64,000 nucleotides of DNA. Origin: Candidatus Latescibacterota bacterium (GTDB lineage Bacteria > Latescibacterota > UBA2968). Location: positions 1-64,000 of the forward strand of contig JAJEHL010000050.1 in assembly GCA_022823725.1 (NCBI GenBank). Reading direction: 5' to 3'. This document shows positions 5,418 through 43,527 of the stretch, in pieces. The translations under genes were made by a program, and so were the position numbers. The first letter of the stretch is position 1, and every line of letters starts with the position of its first letter. Below the pieces are notes generated by a model. The model saw nothing but the letters and a program-made list of their open reading frames with translations. It was not told where the DNA came from and ran no database searches.

Positions 5418-7820
5418 TCACTCAATTTTAAAGCTCGCGGTTTTGGTCACTTTTTGCCCGTCTCTGCGATCTGTTGCAGCTACCTCGATGATGTATTCCC
5501 CTGGCTCGGAACCAGATAGGTCAAGTGCCAGATAGTTGACCACGTTGTCGGCATCGCCCGTCTGGTCATAAGAAATCGCAATTTGTTCTTCGTTCTGGTC
5601 TATGCCCACCAGTTTTTCCAGGCCACCGAGTACTTTTGCGCCAAACGACTGTCCGGAACGCGGTTTTAAGCGGTAGGAGATCTGGTAGTCCGTCTGTCCG
5701 AATGCATCCTGGCTCAGTCCGTAAATTTCGTAGTAAAGATAGATTAGATGCCGCTGTGTATAATGCCTCGTGGCCAGGGGAATGACTTCCAAATTCTGTT
5801 TGACAAAATGTCCTTTTCCGGTGGTGTGTTCAATTGATGCTGCCATTTCGATATCGCTCAGCCAGAGTCTGCCCTGCCGATATGACGGGACCCGCAAGGG
5901 CATGCCATAGACCTGCGTGCGTCCAGACCGCTCTTCAATGGCCTGCACGGCGAGGTAGTACGATCCAGGTTTTACATCCAGTGCGATTACATCGGGAATG
6001 ATCCCGGTTTTTCCATCTACCCGCAATGCGACCCGTTTTGCGGCTTTGAATACTGGATCGCCTTTTGCATTGTATAGTACGGCTCCCCGGTTTATCTGAA
6101 CATCACCGCCATCTCGCGTCAATGCGGAGGCGGGAAATCCATAGTAGATCTCCACGCGCGTGCTGTCGCCCAGTCCTCGAAATGTGGCGGGATAGGCCGC
6201 GTAATACAGTGGTTCGGCGAGAAATGCCGGTACGTAAATTTCTCTGGGAGCCTGGCTTATAATTTGTTCGGGTATGAGAGGTCCCCACATGTGGCGCATT
6301 TTGGTCGCCATTTCTGCGGGCAATACGGCGTAGTCAAAAACGCCATCGGGCGCACCTGGTACCTGGCGAAACGCGATTTCTACACCGTCCCCCAATCCGG
6401 GATATATCCAGTATTCCCACGCCCGGCGATCCTGGATCGGAAAGATGGGTCGTCCCAGAAACGCACCCAGTCCCCCCACGGCCATCGCCGATTCGGCTCG
6501 TTTTCGGATCTGTTCGCTTCTCTGATTTCGCTCGGATGACCGGTTGTATAGCCTCTGGAACTGCCTTTCCAGTTGGCGTTGCGCCTGCTCTGCGCCAGCG
6601 CCACGGTAGGTCACATTGGCGCTGTCGCTATCAGCGGCGTAGTCCGATAGCAGTATTTCGGCTGCCCAATCTACGCGGTCTAATAGCCTCTGTTTGACAT
6701 CCCAGTCTTCGGGATGGGATTCGCGTTGCCGATTTGCGGAAGCACTTTTGTGTGATGGCGTGCCGTAGCGCACATAAATTTCGCCCCGTCGATCCCACGG
6801 AAAAACTGCCGATCCGAAATGCTCCCGCGCATAGGCTACCCGCCGGAAGTGTTCGACTCTTCGCTCGTTGACGTCTGTAATGGGTGTGGGGTCTCGGCGT
6901 TTCCAGAATTGTTGCAGAAGTACTTGTCTGTCCTTTGCCTGCTTAAATGTCTCTGTTTCCTTTTCTGAGGCGAGTAGGGAAATGTCTTCATAAGGCATCC
7001 GCTCTCTGGCATTCAGGCCAGCGATATAGGTTTCAAAAAGGGTTTCTGCCTTTTTGTAATCTTTCCGTTCCAGATAGACTTCGGCCAGTTCCAGCATGTA
7101 TTGCCGCTGGTTTGTGCCCTGAGTTTGCATGAGCCGCGATAAGGTGCGCGCTGCTTGATCTGTGCGGGAGAGGGTGCGGTAGAGTTGCCCCAGTCGCCAC
7201 ATGGCGTCTTTGTGTGCGGGATTGACCGCCAGTTGTTTTTCGTAAAATTCTATTGCGCCGTCTTTTTTTAGTAGATCGTATTCATACATAAAGCCCAGGC
7301 GGTAATACGCATCTGGATGGTCTGGGTCCATTTCGACCACCTGCTCAAAAGCTCTGATGGCATCGCGGTTCATGAGGTTCAGATGCGTCAGGCCAATGTG
7401 GTATTGGGCTTCTACATAGTCGGGCTTTTCGGCCAGGGCGCGGCAAAAGTAATCAATGGCACGCACCCATTGGCCTTTTTCACGGGCATAGACGAGGCCC
7501 ATGCCAAAGTAGGCTTCGGGCATTTTTCGCTGGTATTTTTCTGCGTTTCGAAAGGCTTTTCTGGCTTTGCCAAGCTGATCCTGGGTTAGATACACATGCC
7601 CTAAGCCACAGTGGGTTGGGGCGTGTTTTTTGTTTGTTTTTAGAGATTGCTCAAACAAAATTTTTGCGCGGTCTATTTCTCCTGCTTTGAGTGCCTGATT
7701 ACCCTGTAGATACAGAGAATCCGCAGGAGAAGTATCCGCCAGGACTGGTGCAACAGTCCAGAATATCCCAAAGATCAGGGCGAGCGCAATGCGCCCGATA
7801 TGCCAGCCTATTTTCGACAT
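5418..7820 (-). CDS. TPR- and GWxTD-domain protein (copy B)
   Basis: 800 residues from the ATG at 7820 (TTG two codons upstream is the alternative). It has a signal peptide (MSKIGWHIGRIALALIFGIF...PVLA), then at least six TPR units up to about residue 250 (APTHCGLGHVYLTQDQLGKA, AEAYFGMGLVYAREKGQW, PDAYYRLGFMYEYDLLKK). A GWxTD-type domain follows with FWKRRDPTPITDVNERR and PWDRRGEIYVRYGTP, and a beta-rich C-terminus (FGQTDYQISYRLK; VNYLALDLSGSEPGEYIIEV). It is a diverged paralog of copy A, only 7 bp upstream of it. Probably periplasmic or envelope-anchored with the TPRs as a protein-binding platform; this is inference. The double-PhyH gene ends 18 bp upstream. Confidence 0.83.
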   Translation of the reverse strand: MSKIGWHIGRIALALIFGIFWTVAPVLADTSPADSLYLQGNQALKAGEIDRAKILFEQSLKTNKKHAPTHCGLGHVYLTQDQLGKARKAFRNAEKYQRKMPEAYFGMGLVYAREKGQWVRAIDYFCRALAEKPDYVEAQYHIGLTHLNLMNRDAIRAFEQVVEMDPDHPDAYYRLGFMYEYDLLKKDGAIEFYEKQLAVNPAHKDAMWRLGQLYRTLSRTDQAARTLSRLMQTQGTNQRQYMLELAEVYLERKDYKKAETLFETYIAGLNARERMPYEDISLLASEKETETFKQAKDRQVLLQQFWKRRDPTPITDVNERRVEHFRRVAYAREHFGSAVFPWDRRGEIYVRYGTPSHKSASANRQRESHPEDWDVKQRLLDRVDWAAEILLSDYAADSDSANVTYRGAGAEQAQRQLERQFQRLYNRSSERNQRSEQIRKRAESAMAVGGLGAFLGRPIFPIQDRRAWEYWIYPGLGDGVEIAFRQVPGAPDGVFDYAVLPAEMATKMRHMWGPLIPEQIISQAPREIYVPAFLAEPLYYAAYPATFRGLGDSTRVEIYYGFPASALTRDGGDVQINRGAVLYNAKGDPVFKAAKRVALRVDGKTGIIPDVIALDVKPGSYYLAVQAIEERSGRTQVYGMPLRVPSYRQGRLWLSDIEMAASIEHTTGKGHFVKQNLEVIPLATRHYTQRHLIYLYYEIYGLSQDAFGQTDYQISYRLKPRSGQSFGAKVLGGLEKLVGIDQNEEQIAISYDQTGDADNVVNYLALDLSGSEPGEYIIEVAATDRRDGQKVTKTASFKIE

Positions 7821-13918: not shown

Positions 13919-14794
13919 TCATCGAGTCTTCTCATAAAGCGCGATGCTTACCTGCGTACCGGGGAATAGTGCAGATGGATACACCCACATGTCGTCTTCC
14001 CGAATGTACACCCGTTCATCTCCCGAGCGAATGTGTAAACGCCCGTTGTTTTCCTGGCAAATTTGTTTCACAATGTATAGACCCAGTCCCCGTGTATCGC
14101 CCCGCGAAACGGTTTTCTGAATCGCCATTTTTATTGCCTGTCCGTGCGACCAATGCGCTGTTTCGTGTCCTGTTGATAGACTCTCTCGAATGCCAATGCC
14201 CAGGTCGCATACGCCGATGATCGCAAATTTTCTGTTCAATCTGTGATTGGTATAGCGCTGTGCGACCACAAACCCTTTATCCCCGCTGTGGTCCAGGATA
14301 TTGTGACACAATTCGGCTACGACATTTTTAAATCCCGTAATTTCCCGCACGGTATAGTGCAGTTCTTCACTCAAGATGGTGCCGACTCGCGATTCAATTA
14401 CGCCCAGAACTTGCTCGATATCGCTCCGCTGTTCGATGGTCGTAATTTCCAGCAGGCTTTCGTTGCGGGTTCGCGGCTGTCCCGTTTGCGGTACGCGCGC
14501 TACTGTCACATAAGACATCAGCGCGTCAAATACTTTCATGCGGGTCAAATAACGCTCGACGTCTGAATTTTCGGGCAGTCGGCAGGTAATATCCCAGTAT
14601 TTGGCACTCAGATGTCGGCCTATCAAACACAACATCCCCATCCCATAGGGATCGACAAAACCCAATTGCGACAGATCCAGAACGATGTTGTCTTCATCTC
14701 GCTGTGACGCGAATGCTCCGAGGTCGCGCAGCACATTGTCACACGAGACAGCCGATAAATTCTGTTCCGCTATCGCCAGCGTGTTGTTAGTCAT
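13919..14794 (-). CDS. STAS-like plus HATPase_c regulatory protein
   Basis: 291 residues. The N-terminal 90 residues look like a STAS-type or MlaB-like fold (NIVLDLSQLGFVDPYGMGMLCLIG). The C-terminal part is a GHKL ATPase domain: N-box AELCHNILDHSG, G1 box CDLGIGI and G2 box DTRGLGLYIVKQ. No phospho-accepting histidine domain is seen, so this resembles an anti-sigma-factor kinase fused to its own anti-anti-sigma-like module rather than a standard histidine kinase. It starts 8 bp after the TPR/GWxTD gene copy C, with no clear ribosome-binding site, suggesting translational coupling. Partners may be the SpoIIE-type phosphatase at 56193 or an ECF/sigma system elsewhere; this is inference. Confidence 0.75.
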   Translation of the reverse strand: MTNNTLAIAEQNLSAVSCDNVLRDLGAFASQRDEDNIVLDLSQLGFVDPYGMGMLCLIGRHLSAKYWDITCRLPENSDVERYLTRMKVFDALMSYVTVARVPQTGQPRTRNESLLEITTIEQRSDIEQVLGVIESRVGTILSEELHYTVREITGFKNVVAELCHNILDHSGDKGFVVAQRYTNHRLNRKFAIIGVCDLGIGIRESLSTGHETAHWSHGQAIKMAIQKTVSRGDTRGLGLYIVKQICQENNGRLHIRSGDERVYIREDDMWVYPSALFPGTQVSIALYEKTR

Positions 14795-40802: not shown

Positions 40803-41018
40803 ATGAATGCCCATCGCGTTGAAGCGGTTATAGGTCAGGGCAGAATGGTTGTGCTAAAGAATTTGCCTTTTCAGGTAGGCGAATCGGTCGAAGTCATTAT
40901 TTGTCATAGTTCTTCAAAACGCAACGAGAAAGGCCGTTATTCGTTGCGTGGCACTGCGATAAAATACCTTGATCCCACGGAACCCGTAGCGGATGGAGAT
41001 TGGAGCGTATCACAGTGA
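40803..41018 (+). CDS. VapB-like antitoxin
   Basis: 71 residues: a short beta/AbrB-like or DUF2281-type N-terminus (RVEAVIGQGRMVVLKNLPFQVGESVEVIICH) and a C-terminal tail RYSLRGTAIKYLDPTEPVADGDWSVSQ, which would wrap the toxin. GGGGGTGAG precedes the ATG. The stop overlaps the toxin start (GTGA), the usual coupled VapBC order. TTGTTA and TACAAT, 15 bp apart (40763-40789), are a possible promoter. Confidence 0.8.
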   Translation: MNAHRVEAVIGQGRMVVLKNLPFQVGESVEVIICHSSSKRNEKGRYSLRGTAIKYLDPTEPVADGDWSVSQ

Positions 41019-41407
41019 TTGTGCTTGATACACACATTTGGGTCTGGTGGATTCATGGAGACGCTCACCTCACCAGCCAGCAAGTGGCGTGGTTACAACA
41101 CTATGAGTCTCAAGGTCTTGGGGTGAGTGCAATTTCATGTTGGGAAGTTGCCAAATTAGTTGAGTATGATCGGCTCGTCTTGCCTTGTCCCGTTGGCGAG
41201 TGGATGGAACAGGCACTCTCATATCCGGGCATTCAGTTTCTCAATTTGACGCCACAAATTGCAATTGAGTCCACACAATTGCCTGTTGGATTCCACAAAG
41301 ATCCAGCGGATCAGATTATTGTTGCTACGGCGAGGGTCCACAACTGCCAATTATTGACAGTGGATGCAAAGATACTTGATTATGGACATGTTAATACACT
41401 GAAGTAA
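41015..41407 (+). CDS. VapC-like PIN-domain toxin
   Basis: 130 residues from a GTG at 41015 that overlaps the antitoxin TGA by 4 bp; GGAG lies nine bases ahead. PIN-domain acidic residues are visible: VLDTHIWVWW (first Asp), SAISCWEVAKL (Glu) and KDPADQIIVATARVHNCQLLTVD (third and fourth acids). PIN toxins are magnesium-dependent ribonucleases, often cutting initiator tRNA or 23S rRNA. The proximity of three tRNA-like genes 800 bp away is notable but may be coincidence. Confidence 0.88.
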   Translation: MIVLDTHIWVWWIHGDAHLTSQQVAWLQHYESQGLGVSAISCWEVAKLVEYDRLVLPCPVGEWMEQALSYPGIQFLNLTPQIAIESTQLPVGFHKDPADQIIVATARVHNCQLLTVDAKILDYGHVNTLK

Positions 41408-41435
41408 TCGTGCTGAATTCATGAAAGGATTTGCT

Positions 41436-42209
41436 ATGTATTTGTACGGGATTCGCAATGCGAGTTTGAATATGGATTGGGGAAAAGATGCTTTTGCAGT
41501 GGCGGGGGATATTGGATTTGATGGGGTGGAGATTGTGCTGCGAGAGGAGGAGCGATTGGATTGGCTTTTGAGTGCGGCGGGTCGGGATGAGGTTGGGCGA
41601 TGGGTTGAGGAGACGGGCGCGCAAGCGTGTTCAATCAGTTTTGCCCTGTTTCGGGAATACAAGGGGCATGAGGAAGACGAGGCTGTGCGCGACCGCGTGG
41701 TAGGTCTCGTGCAAAAGGGAATTCGCGCATGTAAGGGGATGGGGGGTGTCGGTATTTTACTTCCGTATTTTGATGCGGAGAATCTCGATATGTCGAGCGC
41801 GCATGCAGAATTGCTGATTGAGGACTTGAAGCAATGCGCCCCTGTCGCTGAAGATGAGGGTATTAAAGTAGCTCTGGAGACGAGTTTTTCACCGGGGTTG
41901 TTGAGAACGATTTGCGATGGTGTGGGTTCTGAGATGGTGGGGGTATATCAAGATACGGCGAATGCACTGCAATACGGGTACGATTCGGTGGATATGCTCG
42001 TTACTTTACCGGAACACACACAATTGATTCATATTAAAGATACACAGCGTTCTGATCTGGGCGAGGGTACTGTGGATTTTCCCGCGTGCCGAGATGCGAT
42101 TGCACAGATCGGTTATGAGGGTTGGCTGATTTTTGAAACGCCAGGAGGCGCTGATCCCGTGGCATCGGGTAAGAAGAATTTGACTTTTGCAAAAGAGATG
42201 TTTGGGTAG
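41436..42209 (+). CDS. Xylose-isomerase-like TIM-barrel protein
   Basis: 257 residues from the ATG at 41436 (AAAGGA ahead); an ATG five codons upstream at 41421 is the alternative. AP_endonuc_2 pattern: DIGFDGVEIVLREEERL, KGMGGVGILLPYF, GIKVALETSFSPGLL (metal Glu), VGVYQDTANALQYGYD (Asp), QLIHIKDTQRSDLGEGTVDF and GYEGWLIFETPGG (last Glu). Probably a sugar or inosose epimerase/isomerase. Its stop is 2 bp from the 3' end of the first tRNA-like gene on the opposite strand. Confidence 0.85.
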   Translation: MYLYGIRNASLNMDWGKDAFAVAGDIGFDGVEIVLREEERLDWLLSAAGRDEVGRWVEETGAQACSISFALFREYKGHEEDEAVRDRVVGLVQKGIRACKGMGGVGILLPYFDAENLDMSSAHAELLIEDLKQCAPVAEDEGIKVALETSFSPGLLRTICDGVGSEMVGVYQDTANALQYGYDSVDMLVTLPEHTQLIHIKDTQRSDLGEGTVDFPACRDAIAQIGYEGWLIFETPGGADPVASGKKNLTFAKEMFG

Positions 42210-42211
42210 GC

Positions 42212-42298
42212 TGGCAGAGGGCGAGGGAATCGAACCCTATGCGGTTGCCCGCACCGCTGACCAATGTCAGGCCACCCTCCTCAGGTGGTTCACCCCCT
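42212..42298 (-). ncRNA. tRNA-like RNA 1 (8/4 acceptor branch, no standard anticodon loop)
   Basis: 87 bases including an encoded CCA. Acceptor AGGGGGTG pairs with CGCCCTCT (8 bp, U-G at pair 7 and G-U at pair 3), discriminator G. D arm CCACC/GGTGG with a 7-base loop TGAGGAG containing the GG pair. The anticodon-position arm is CTGAC/GTCAG with only ATTG between (or 4 bp with a 6-base loop). The long variable arm is TGCGG/CCGCA capped by GCAA. T arm AGGG/CCCT around TTCGATT. The last T of CCCT could pair instead with A9, giving a 9/3 branch. G73 and the long variable arm are serine-type identity features. Last of the three in transcription order. Confidence 0.72.
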
Positions 42299-42322
42299 GC
42301 ATTTAGGCTATTGTTCTCTAAT

Positions 42323-42411
42323 TGGCAGAGGGTGAGGGAATCGAACCCTATGCGGTCGCCCGCACACGAAGCCAGAATGCTCCGCCCCATTCCAAATGGT
42401 GTTCACCCCCT
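42323..42411 (-). ncRNA. tRNA-like RNA 2 (8/4 acceptor branch, no standard anticodon loop)
   Basis: 89 bases with CCA. Acceptor AGGGGGTG/CACCCTCT, in which pair 7 is a full U-A, where copy 1 has U-G and copy 3 C-G. D arm CACCA/TGGGG (one mismatch) with loop TTTGGAA. The anticodon-position arm is GGAGC/GCTTC around ATTCTG, entirely different in sequence from the other copies yet still paired. Variable arm TGCGG-GCGA-CCGCA keeps a GNRA loop. T arm is identical to copy 1. No seven-base loop with U33 can be drawn. A 24-base spacer separates it from copy 1. Confidence 0.72.
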
Positions 42412-42432
42412 GCATTGATGCTGTTGTTTTCT

Positions 42433-42519
42433 TGGCAGAGGGCGAGGGAATTGAACCCTATGCGGTTGCCCGCACCACCGACCAGTGTCAGGCGGCCCAC
42501 CTTGAACCGTTCGCCCCCT
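42433..42519 (-). ncRNA. tRNA-like RNA 3 (8/4 acceptor branch, no standard anticodon loop)
   Basis: 87 bases with CCA. Acceptor AGGGGGCG/CGCCCTCT with C-G at pair 7. D arm CGGTT/GGCCG around CAAGGTG. Anticodon-position arm CTGAC/GTCGG around ACTG. Variable arm TGCGG-GCAA-CCGCA. T arm AGGG/CCCT around TTCAATT. It is first in transcription order, 36 bp after the stop of the PhyH gene at 42556, so the array may be processed from that transcript. The spacer to copy 2 (21 bases) resembles the other spacer (GCATT...GCTNTTGTT), so gene plus spacer was duplicated as a unit of about 112 bp. Confidence 0.72.
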
Positions 42520-42555
42520 ACCTATTTTGACAAAGCTGCGCGCTCAAGGGTTTCT

Positions 42556-43527
42556 CTATGAGTGAGGGCGCAGTTCACCCAGGGATTGTTCCCCGGGTTG
42601 AATATATTCTACGGCTGGGCTTTCGATGCGTCCGTACGCATTCCACACTTTGAATCCGAGTAAAGAGAGAAGATCGGGCGATGCTTCGGCGAGGACTTCG
42701 GGAGCCGTGCCTATGGTAAAATTTTCCTGTGGACGGAATTGAGGTCCGCAGAATGTGGTGAGTATGGCCCAGCGCATTTGGTCGCTTATATTGGCTCCCG
42801 TGCCGTGCCAGATGCGTCCGTCGAGGAATCCAACTGTGCCGGCTGGCCCTTCGAGGGCGACTGTTTCGATGGCGTTGTCATCGGGGTTGTCAGGACGTCG
42901 TCCCCACAGGTGACTGCCGGGGACGATGCGGGTGCCGCCGTTTTCCGTTGTGAAGTCGCCGATCATCCATACCACGTTGACGACGACGCGAGGCCAGATG
43001 GATGCGGTATCGGGTAGATCTGTTTGCTCGCGGGTGATAGAACCTGCGGGTAAATGCGTTCGATCTGCACGCGTTGGCATGGGCATCCACCACTGGTCTG
43101 TGTGCAGGCGCATGGGAACGCCGCCGGGTTTGGCGATGTTGGCCGAATGGCTCGATAGCAAATAATCATTGCCCAGTGCGTGATCTACGATATTGCGAAC
43201 CCCTGAGTGTAATAGCATGTCTTGAAATACCCGACCTTTGTTGATCAGCATCCACACGCGCTGGTTGACGCCTCCTGCCGATTGTGTAAACGCCCCTCCG
43301 CGTACCTGCCCGTTTTTATTTTTAAAATCCCCCCAGTTTTGTTTTGCACCCCCGTCTTCAAATGCGAGTCCGCGTTGTTTTTCCGCAATGGCCTGTTCTT
43401 TTAGGCGGGTTTTTATTTTTGAGAGGTCTTCTGCATTGAGCGCGTTGGCGAGCAGGCCATAACCACAGGTGTCGAGTTGGGTTTTGACCTGTGCGAGATT
43501 TTCGGTGGGTTGTGGAAGTTCAGACAT
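42556..43527 (-). CDS. Phytanoyl-CoA dioxygenase family protein, canonical active site
   Basis: 323 residues with GAGGAA before the ATG. Complete Fe(II)/2-oxoglutarate site: H142-T-D144 (MRLHTDQWW), IVPGSHLWGRRP near 201, distal H241 (GRIWHGTG) and R252. An active oxygenase is expected. An N-terminal helical part (LNAEDLSKIKTRLKEQAIAEKQRG) and GGAKQNWGDFKNKNGQVRGGAF are family-like. It is 29 bp downstream of the MFS gene and directly upstream of the tRNA-like array on the same strand. Confidence 0.9.
   Translation of the reverse strand: MSELPQPTENLAQVKTQLDTCGYGLLANALNAEDLSKIKTRLKEQAIAEKQRGLAFEDGGAKQNWGDFKNKNGQVRGGAFTQSAGGVNQRVWMLINKGRVFQDMLLHSGVRNIVDHALGNDYLLSSHSANIAKPGGVPMRLHTDQWWMPMPTRADRTHLPAGSITREQTDLPDTASIWPRVVVNVVWMIGDFTTENGGTRIVPGSHLWGRRPDNPDDNAIETVALEGPAGTVGFLDGRIWHGTGANISDQMRWAILTTFCGPQFRPQENFTIGTAPEVLAEASPDLLSLLGFKVWNAYGRIESPAVEYIQPGEQSLGELRPHS

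Follow-up and report, generated by a model that had tools for sequence, protein, structure and literature searches.

The stretch of DNA analysed here, referred to as the window, comprises positions 1 to 64,000 of contig JAJEHL010000050.1 (assembly GCA_022823725.1) from a Candidatus Latescibacterota bacterium. On its minus strand, at 42212-42519, lie three tandem tRNA-like RNAs (copies a, b and c) of 87, 89 and 87 nucleotides (nt), separated by spacers of 21 and 24 nt and neighboured by a gene on either side (Table 1). Each copy combines a 12-base-pair (bp) acceptor branch, a D loop containing GG, a 6-bp variable arm, a T loop of the form UUCRAUU, G73 and an encoded CCA end. The variable arms are capped by GCAA, GCGA and GCAA, all of the GNRA type, and acceptor pair 7 is C-G, U-A and U-G across the three copies. 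Upon unconstrained folding of each copy singly, the cloverleaf-like shape was both the minimum free energy and the centroid structure in all three cases, with z scores of -2.0, -2.6 and -2.7. A preliminary description of the locus had reported three minus-strand copies with G73, CCA, the GG D loop, GNRA caps, a variable pair 7 and loops of 4, 6 and 4 nt at the anticodon position, and all of these were present on re-inspection and folding.

Table 1. Features of the tRNA-like array and its immediate surroundings (window positions)
Feature	Position	Strand	Description
Copy a	42433..42519	-	87 nt; 8/4 branch, G3:U70, G73, CCA; anticodon-position stem 5 bp, loop ACUG 4 nt
Copy b	42323..42411	-	89 nt; anticodon-position stem 7 bp, loop AUUCUG 6 nt
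Copy c	42212..42298	-	87 nt; D stem CCACCU/GGGUGG; anticodon-position stem 5 bp, loop AUUG 4 nt
35-bp segment immediately upstream of copy a	42520..42554	-	Conserved in genus; still attached to the a-type copy elsewhere in G008
Phytanoyl-CoA dioxygenase family gene (PhyH), upstream neighbour	42556..43527	-	Pfam PF05721, 3.6e-20
Xylose-isomerase-like TIM barrel gene, convergent neighbour	41421..42209	+	Pfam PF01261, 3e-34; stop codon 2 nt from array

None of the three copies was called by ARAGORN or by Rfam at gathering scores. At a relaxed Rfam threshold all three matched tRNA-Sec (RF01852) below the cut-off (E values of 3e-4 to 1.5e-3), with 29.1-31.8 bits against a gathering score of 47, and they have no UCA anticodon in a 7-nt loop. 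Inspection of the sequence revealed no 5+7+5 arm in the 17-nt anticodon-position segment of copies a and c, and no way of drawing one for copy b, in agreement with the earlier statement that an ordinary seven-base anticodon loop is precluded. With 87-89 nt, the copies are also too short to hold the mRNA-like domain of transfer-messenger RNA (tmRNA) with its tag reading frame.

Structural conservation and branch type

The pairing of these RNAs is maintained while their sequences change. In the alignment of a- and c-type copies, 290 of 290 pair cells are standard pairs, and the D-stem changes that separate copy c from copy a leave the pairing wholly intact, with two pairs changed on both sides. 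Across all copies, changes on both sides were found in 17 pairs, compared with 10.1 +- 1.4 in shuffled alignments (0 of 500 reached 17), and the covariation score was 0.396 versus 0.140 (0 of 500), although this alignment was fitted to the covariance model described below and is therefore biased towards structure. In the table of 21 copies, whose stems were drawn by eye, every one of the 115 D-stem cells is paired, and a single position can show as many as five different pair types. Because the family recurs in related genomes (E values down to ~1e-18) and the paired columns covary, the array is beyond what chance would produce.

The preliminary description had left the branch as either 8/4 or 9/3. 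Each of the 30 aligned copies keeps the fourth pair of the T stem (61-75), whether as A-U, G-C, C-G or U-A, and the ninth acceptor pair, A9-U75, is broken in five distinct sequences; the branch is thus assigned to the 8/4 type (8-bp acceptor and 4-bp T stem, 12 bp in total), and the 9/3 type is disfavoured. Further, G73 is found in 21/21 tabulated copies, as is the 6-bp variable arm that together with G73 makes up the serine-type elements of allo-tRNAs, and CCA is encoded in 19/21. The D loop contains GG in every copy and the T loop contains U-U-C in all but one of those tabulated, which fits a preserved elbow.

Conservation is uneven along the molecule. In eight divergent copies, the mean identity is 90% in the 5' acceptor strand, 86% in the variable arm and 83% in the T arm and 3' acceptor strand, and falls to 47% in the D arm and 36% in the anticodon-position arm. 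The loop of the latter measures 4, 6, 9, 12, 13, 18 or 49 nt across the family, the longer values depending on stems assigned by eye, and never the 7 nt of an allo-tRNA anticodon arm.

Distribution and rate of change

A covariance model built from the three copies and refined on relatives was run over 60, 64 and 386 genomes. Counting the host, the family was detected in 13 of 64 Latescibacterota genomes, with the best relatives at E ~1e-18; copy a scores 108.3 bits (R1). The carriers are 10 of the 11 genomes of the host's genus and three genomes of three other genera, two of which (G013 and G014) belong to the same family and one (G020) to another family of the same order. Copies of the a type occur in nine further genomes of the genus, counterparts of copy b in G003, G004 and G006, and the array ranges from one to three copies between genomes. 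In the single-contig genomes G007 and G008 only one copy each was found, which indicates that the family is not a high-copy repeat there, and G013 holds four dispersed copies. The remaining member of the genus, G005, contains just the longer d-type RNA described below.

The one additional match in the phylum (G047) proved to be an ordinary tRNA-Ser. Matches in other phyla reached 37-47 bits, and all 14 of those fetched were ordinary tRNA-Ser or tRNA-Sec according to ARAGORN. When named genomes were scanned with a pattern, every record returned bore the label Latescibacterota/Latescibacteria, Gemmatimonadetes/Gemmatimonadota or simply 'bacterium', and those compared were consistent with the known carriers. 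Two pattern scans of viral contigs yielded no match, and no phage or plasmid record spans 80% of the array; among the partial phage matches listed, most lie inside tRNA genes, including tRNA-Trp.

Individual copies depart from the common form. The third copy of G006 (L069) carries hairpin-like inserts in its D loop and its T loop and has CCU where CCA is expected, giving it a degenerate look. Two copies of G013 (L094 and L095) lie within a duplicated 342-bp unit followed by an open reading frame (ORF) of 60 amino acids that has no relative elsewhere in the phylum, and one of the two carries a large insert in the anticodon-position loop.

The rate of change was compared in nine genomes sharing the locus. 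In pairwise comparisons of species, copy a diverged by 0-10% and the four-fold degenerate sites of its neighbours, of which up to four genes were used, by 13-23%, so that copy a evolves ~3x slower than these sites. Taken together with the paired cells and the covariation, this slow rate bears out the earlier proposal that the structure is under selection. The search of related genomes that had been suggested as a check did recover relatives with compensatory changes.

Amino-acid identity

An aspect that had escaped the preliminary description is a G3:U70 wobble pair, present in 24/24 distinct sequences from four genera and accompanied by G2-C71 in 24/24 and A1-U72 in 23/24. Among the host tRNAs with readable ends, G3:U70 is confined to tRNA-Ala, in a survey where a few calls with no detected CCA were unreadable in register and one Pro call printing G-U looks spurious. 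G3:U70 is the major determinant of alanine identity, whereas serine identity resides mainly in the variable arm and makes no use of the anticodon (PMC9976931). Moreover, allo-tRNAs bearing G3:U70 inserted mainly alanine and serine in Escherichia coli (PMC7609411). The likely charge of the present RNAs, as judged from their identity elements, is alanine, perhaps together with serine.

The RNAs had been described as serylatable, and the G73 and long variable arm on which that proposal was founded are present, making serine charging possible. Serine is nevertheless not the best-supported identity, because the invariant G3:U70 points to alanyl-tRNA synthetase (AlaRS), and serine as the sole identity is weakened by the same pair. 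A dedicated synthetase paralogue is argued against by the gene counts: all 22 genomes searched have a single AlaRS gene, which in G005 is a fragment, and one seryl-tRNA synthetase (SerRS) exceeded the cut-off in 20 of them, with none detected in G010 and G022.

Related RNA, host genome and neighbourhood

A longer relative of 105-106 nt, the d-type RNA, is encoded on contig 6 of the host (14478-14583, minus strand; L004/L072), with relatives at L086, L087, L088 and L089. It shares the 8/4 branch, G3:U70, G73 and CCA, and has a very long variable arm. Its anticodon-position arm contains tandem GA mismatches and ends in a loop of 8-9 nt that includes the tRNA-Trp-like motif UUCCAAA. TATTAT lies just upstream of the RNA.

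Ordinary tRNAs are fully represented in the host, with four tRNA-Ser and a separate regular tRNA-Sec among them, and decoding by the family RNAs is therefore dispensable. It also has one AlaRS, one SerRS and its own tmRNA, the last of which argues against a replacement of tmRNA.

The conserved 35 bp upstream of copy a might be a promoter or a 5' leader. No sigma-70 consensus promoter was found within them, and a scan of the array strand for consensus promoters and terminators returned nothing. The neighbours within the genus are PhyH, major facilitator superfamily, periplasmic binding and TIM-barrel genes, which are not common to the other loci; in G002 the PhyH gene is missing from this site and the RNAs remain. 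In G008, the a-type copy stands at another locus (L092), upstream of an ORF (6294-7622, plus strand) that resembles tnpB by eye. A VapC-like PIN-domain gene is located near the array (window 41000-41407, plus strand) and has no homologue at the relatives' loci.

Discussion

In the present study, a family of tRNA-like RNAs with conserved charging features and no ordinary anticodon loop has been described in Latescibacterota. The missing decoding loop leads us to suggest that these RNAs probably operate outside normal protein synthesis. Herein, we propose that they are lineage-restricted, non-decoding RNAs of the 8/4 allo-tRNA type, charged by AlaRS and possibly in part with serine, that would function with no codon being read, a proposal that we favour with a confidence just short of even. 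The narrower view, of an anticodon-less, alanine-accepting class kept across several genera for delivering or sensing alanine outside translation, is offered more tentatively, as one of which we are rather doubtful. Mechanistically, the short array would yield a single transcript to be processed into CCA-ended molecules, to which the host AlaRS would add alanine by way of the invariant G3:U70 and SerRS might add some serine by way of G73 and the long variable arm. The loss of the anticodon would be no bar to charging, because neither synthetase needs it. Independently of any codon, the RNAs may then carry or titrate the amino acid or the synthetase that attaches it, and could ultimately serve as aminoacyl donors or as regulatory RNAs.

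Several observations weigh against this proposal. The RNAs carry G73 and A1-U72 where tRNA-Ala has A73 and G1-C72, and this difference may lower alanylation (PMC9976931). Some copies look degenerate (G006c, G020a, G013s and G004b), and no partner protein gene that moves with the RNA is shared by the different loci. Finally, FemAB ligases were detected in none of the carrier genomes, which argues against peptidoglycan transfer of the FemAB type and disfavours that version of an extra-ribosomal role.

The main rivals are an uncharged regulatory use and a selfish spread, either of which we regard as unlikely but deserving attention. Uncharged RNAs might owe their tRNA-like shape to stability and to the binding of RNase P, EF-Tu or a synthetase as decoys, with the variable arms as the functional surface. 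Such a role would suit the D and anticodon-position arms, which differ strongly between array-mates yet stay paired, and irregular allo-tRNA-like polycistrons that are not charged by E. coli synthetases are known (PMC7609411); however, the retention of CCA, G73 and the invariant G3:U70 would then require another reason. As selfish or mobile elements, the RNAs would have spread in the order and diversified to no benefit of the host, consistent with the dispersed copies of G013 and the duplicated unit with its small ORF, the displaced copy beside the tnpB-like ORF in G008 and the variable array length. The single copies of G007 and G008 speak against such spread, as do the stable position of copy a in most of the genus, its rate below that of four-fold sites and the lack of a conserved mobility gene.

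Two further explanations appear much less probable. The weak tRNA-Sec match and the broken copies could mean that the RNAs are pseudogenes in decay, derived from ordinary allo-tRNAs or from tRNA-Sec, but the completely paired a/c alignment, the compensatory changes and the slow rate largely refute decay for the main copies, in which the random loss of stems that the preliminary description had named as contrary evidence was not seen; we judge this reading improbable. Least probable of all, in our estimate, are translating allo-tRNAs whose decoding would depend on a non-standard loop or on refolding of the anticodon arm. The tRNA-Trp-like loop of the d-type RNA hints at such a function within the genus, whereas the failure of copies a, b and c to offer a 5+7+5 arm contradicts it, and loops of 4 to 49 nt are incompatible with one decoding mode.

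Among known systems, bacterial tRNA-Sec, the best Rfam match, shares with the family G73, an 8-bp acceptor, a long variable arm and a long D stem closed by a short loop, and differs in its UCA anticodon, the family RNAs having a 4-bp T stem and falling well below the gathering score. The tRNA-like domain of tmRNA likewise lacks an anticodon loop and bears G3:U70, the identity pair for AlaRS; the family RNAs are distinguished from tmRNA by a long variable arm, by their D stem and by having no mRNA part. The non-proteinogenic tRNA-Gly of Staphylococcus keeps its anticodon. It has been withdrawn from translation to supply an aminoacyl ligase that builds the peptidoglycan bridge, and its isoacceptors are marked by changes that weaken EF-Tu binding (PMC4052509), in contrast to the carriers studied here, where the corresponding FemAB ligases went undetected.

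The likeness to allo-tRNAs noted in the preliminary description is supported. Allo-tRNAs of the 8/4 and 9/3 kinds (Mukai et al. 2017, cited via Krahn et al. 2020, PMC7609411) have in common with the present RNAs the 12-bp 8/4 branch, the long variable arm, serine-type elements and, in some, G3:U70, and polycistronic irregular tRNA-like arrays are reported there from soil metatranscriptomes. The allo-tRNAs described there have anticodons, for 35 of 64 codons, and were found in Clostridia, Proteobacteria and Acidobacteria, whereas the present RNAs have no anticodon loop and come from Latescibacterota. Relative to those descriptions the missing loop is new, and the original 2017 account, known to us second-hand, may hold an anticodon-less example. 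Since irregular polycistrons have been reported, yet the allo-tRNAs so described keep their anticodons, we consider the family a variation on the known allo-tRNA theme. It has been suggested that some allo-tRNAs are regulatory or take no part in translation, and a conserved family with all visible charging features and no decoding loop would make this suggestion directly testable, while providing a fixed G3:U70 pair that is free of coding constraint.
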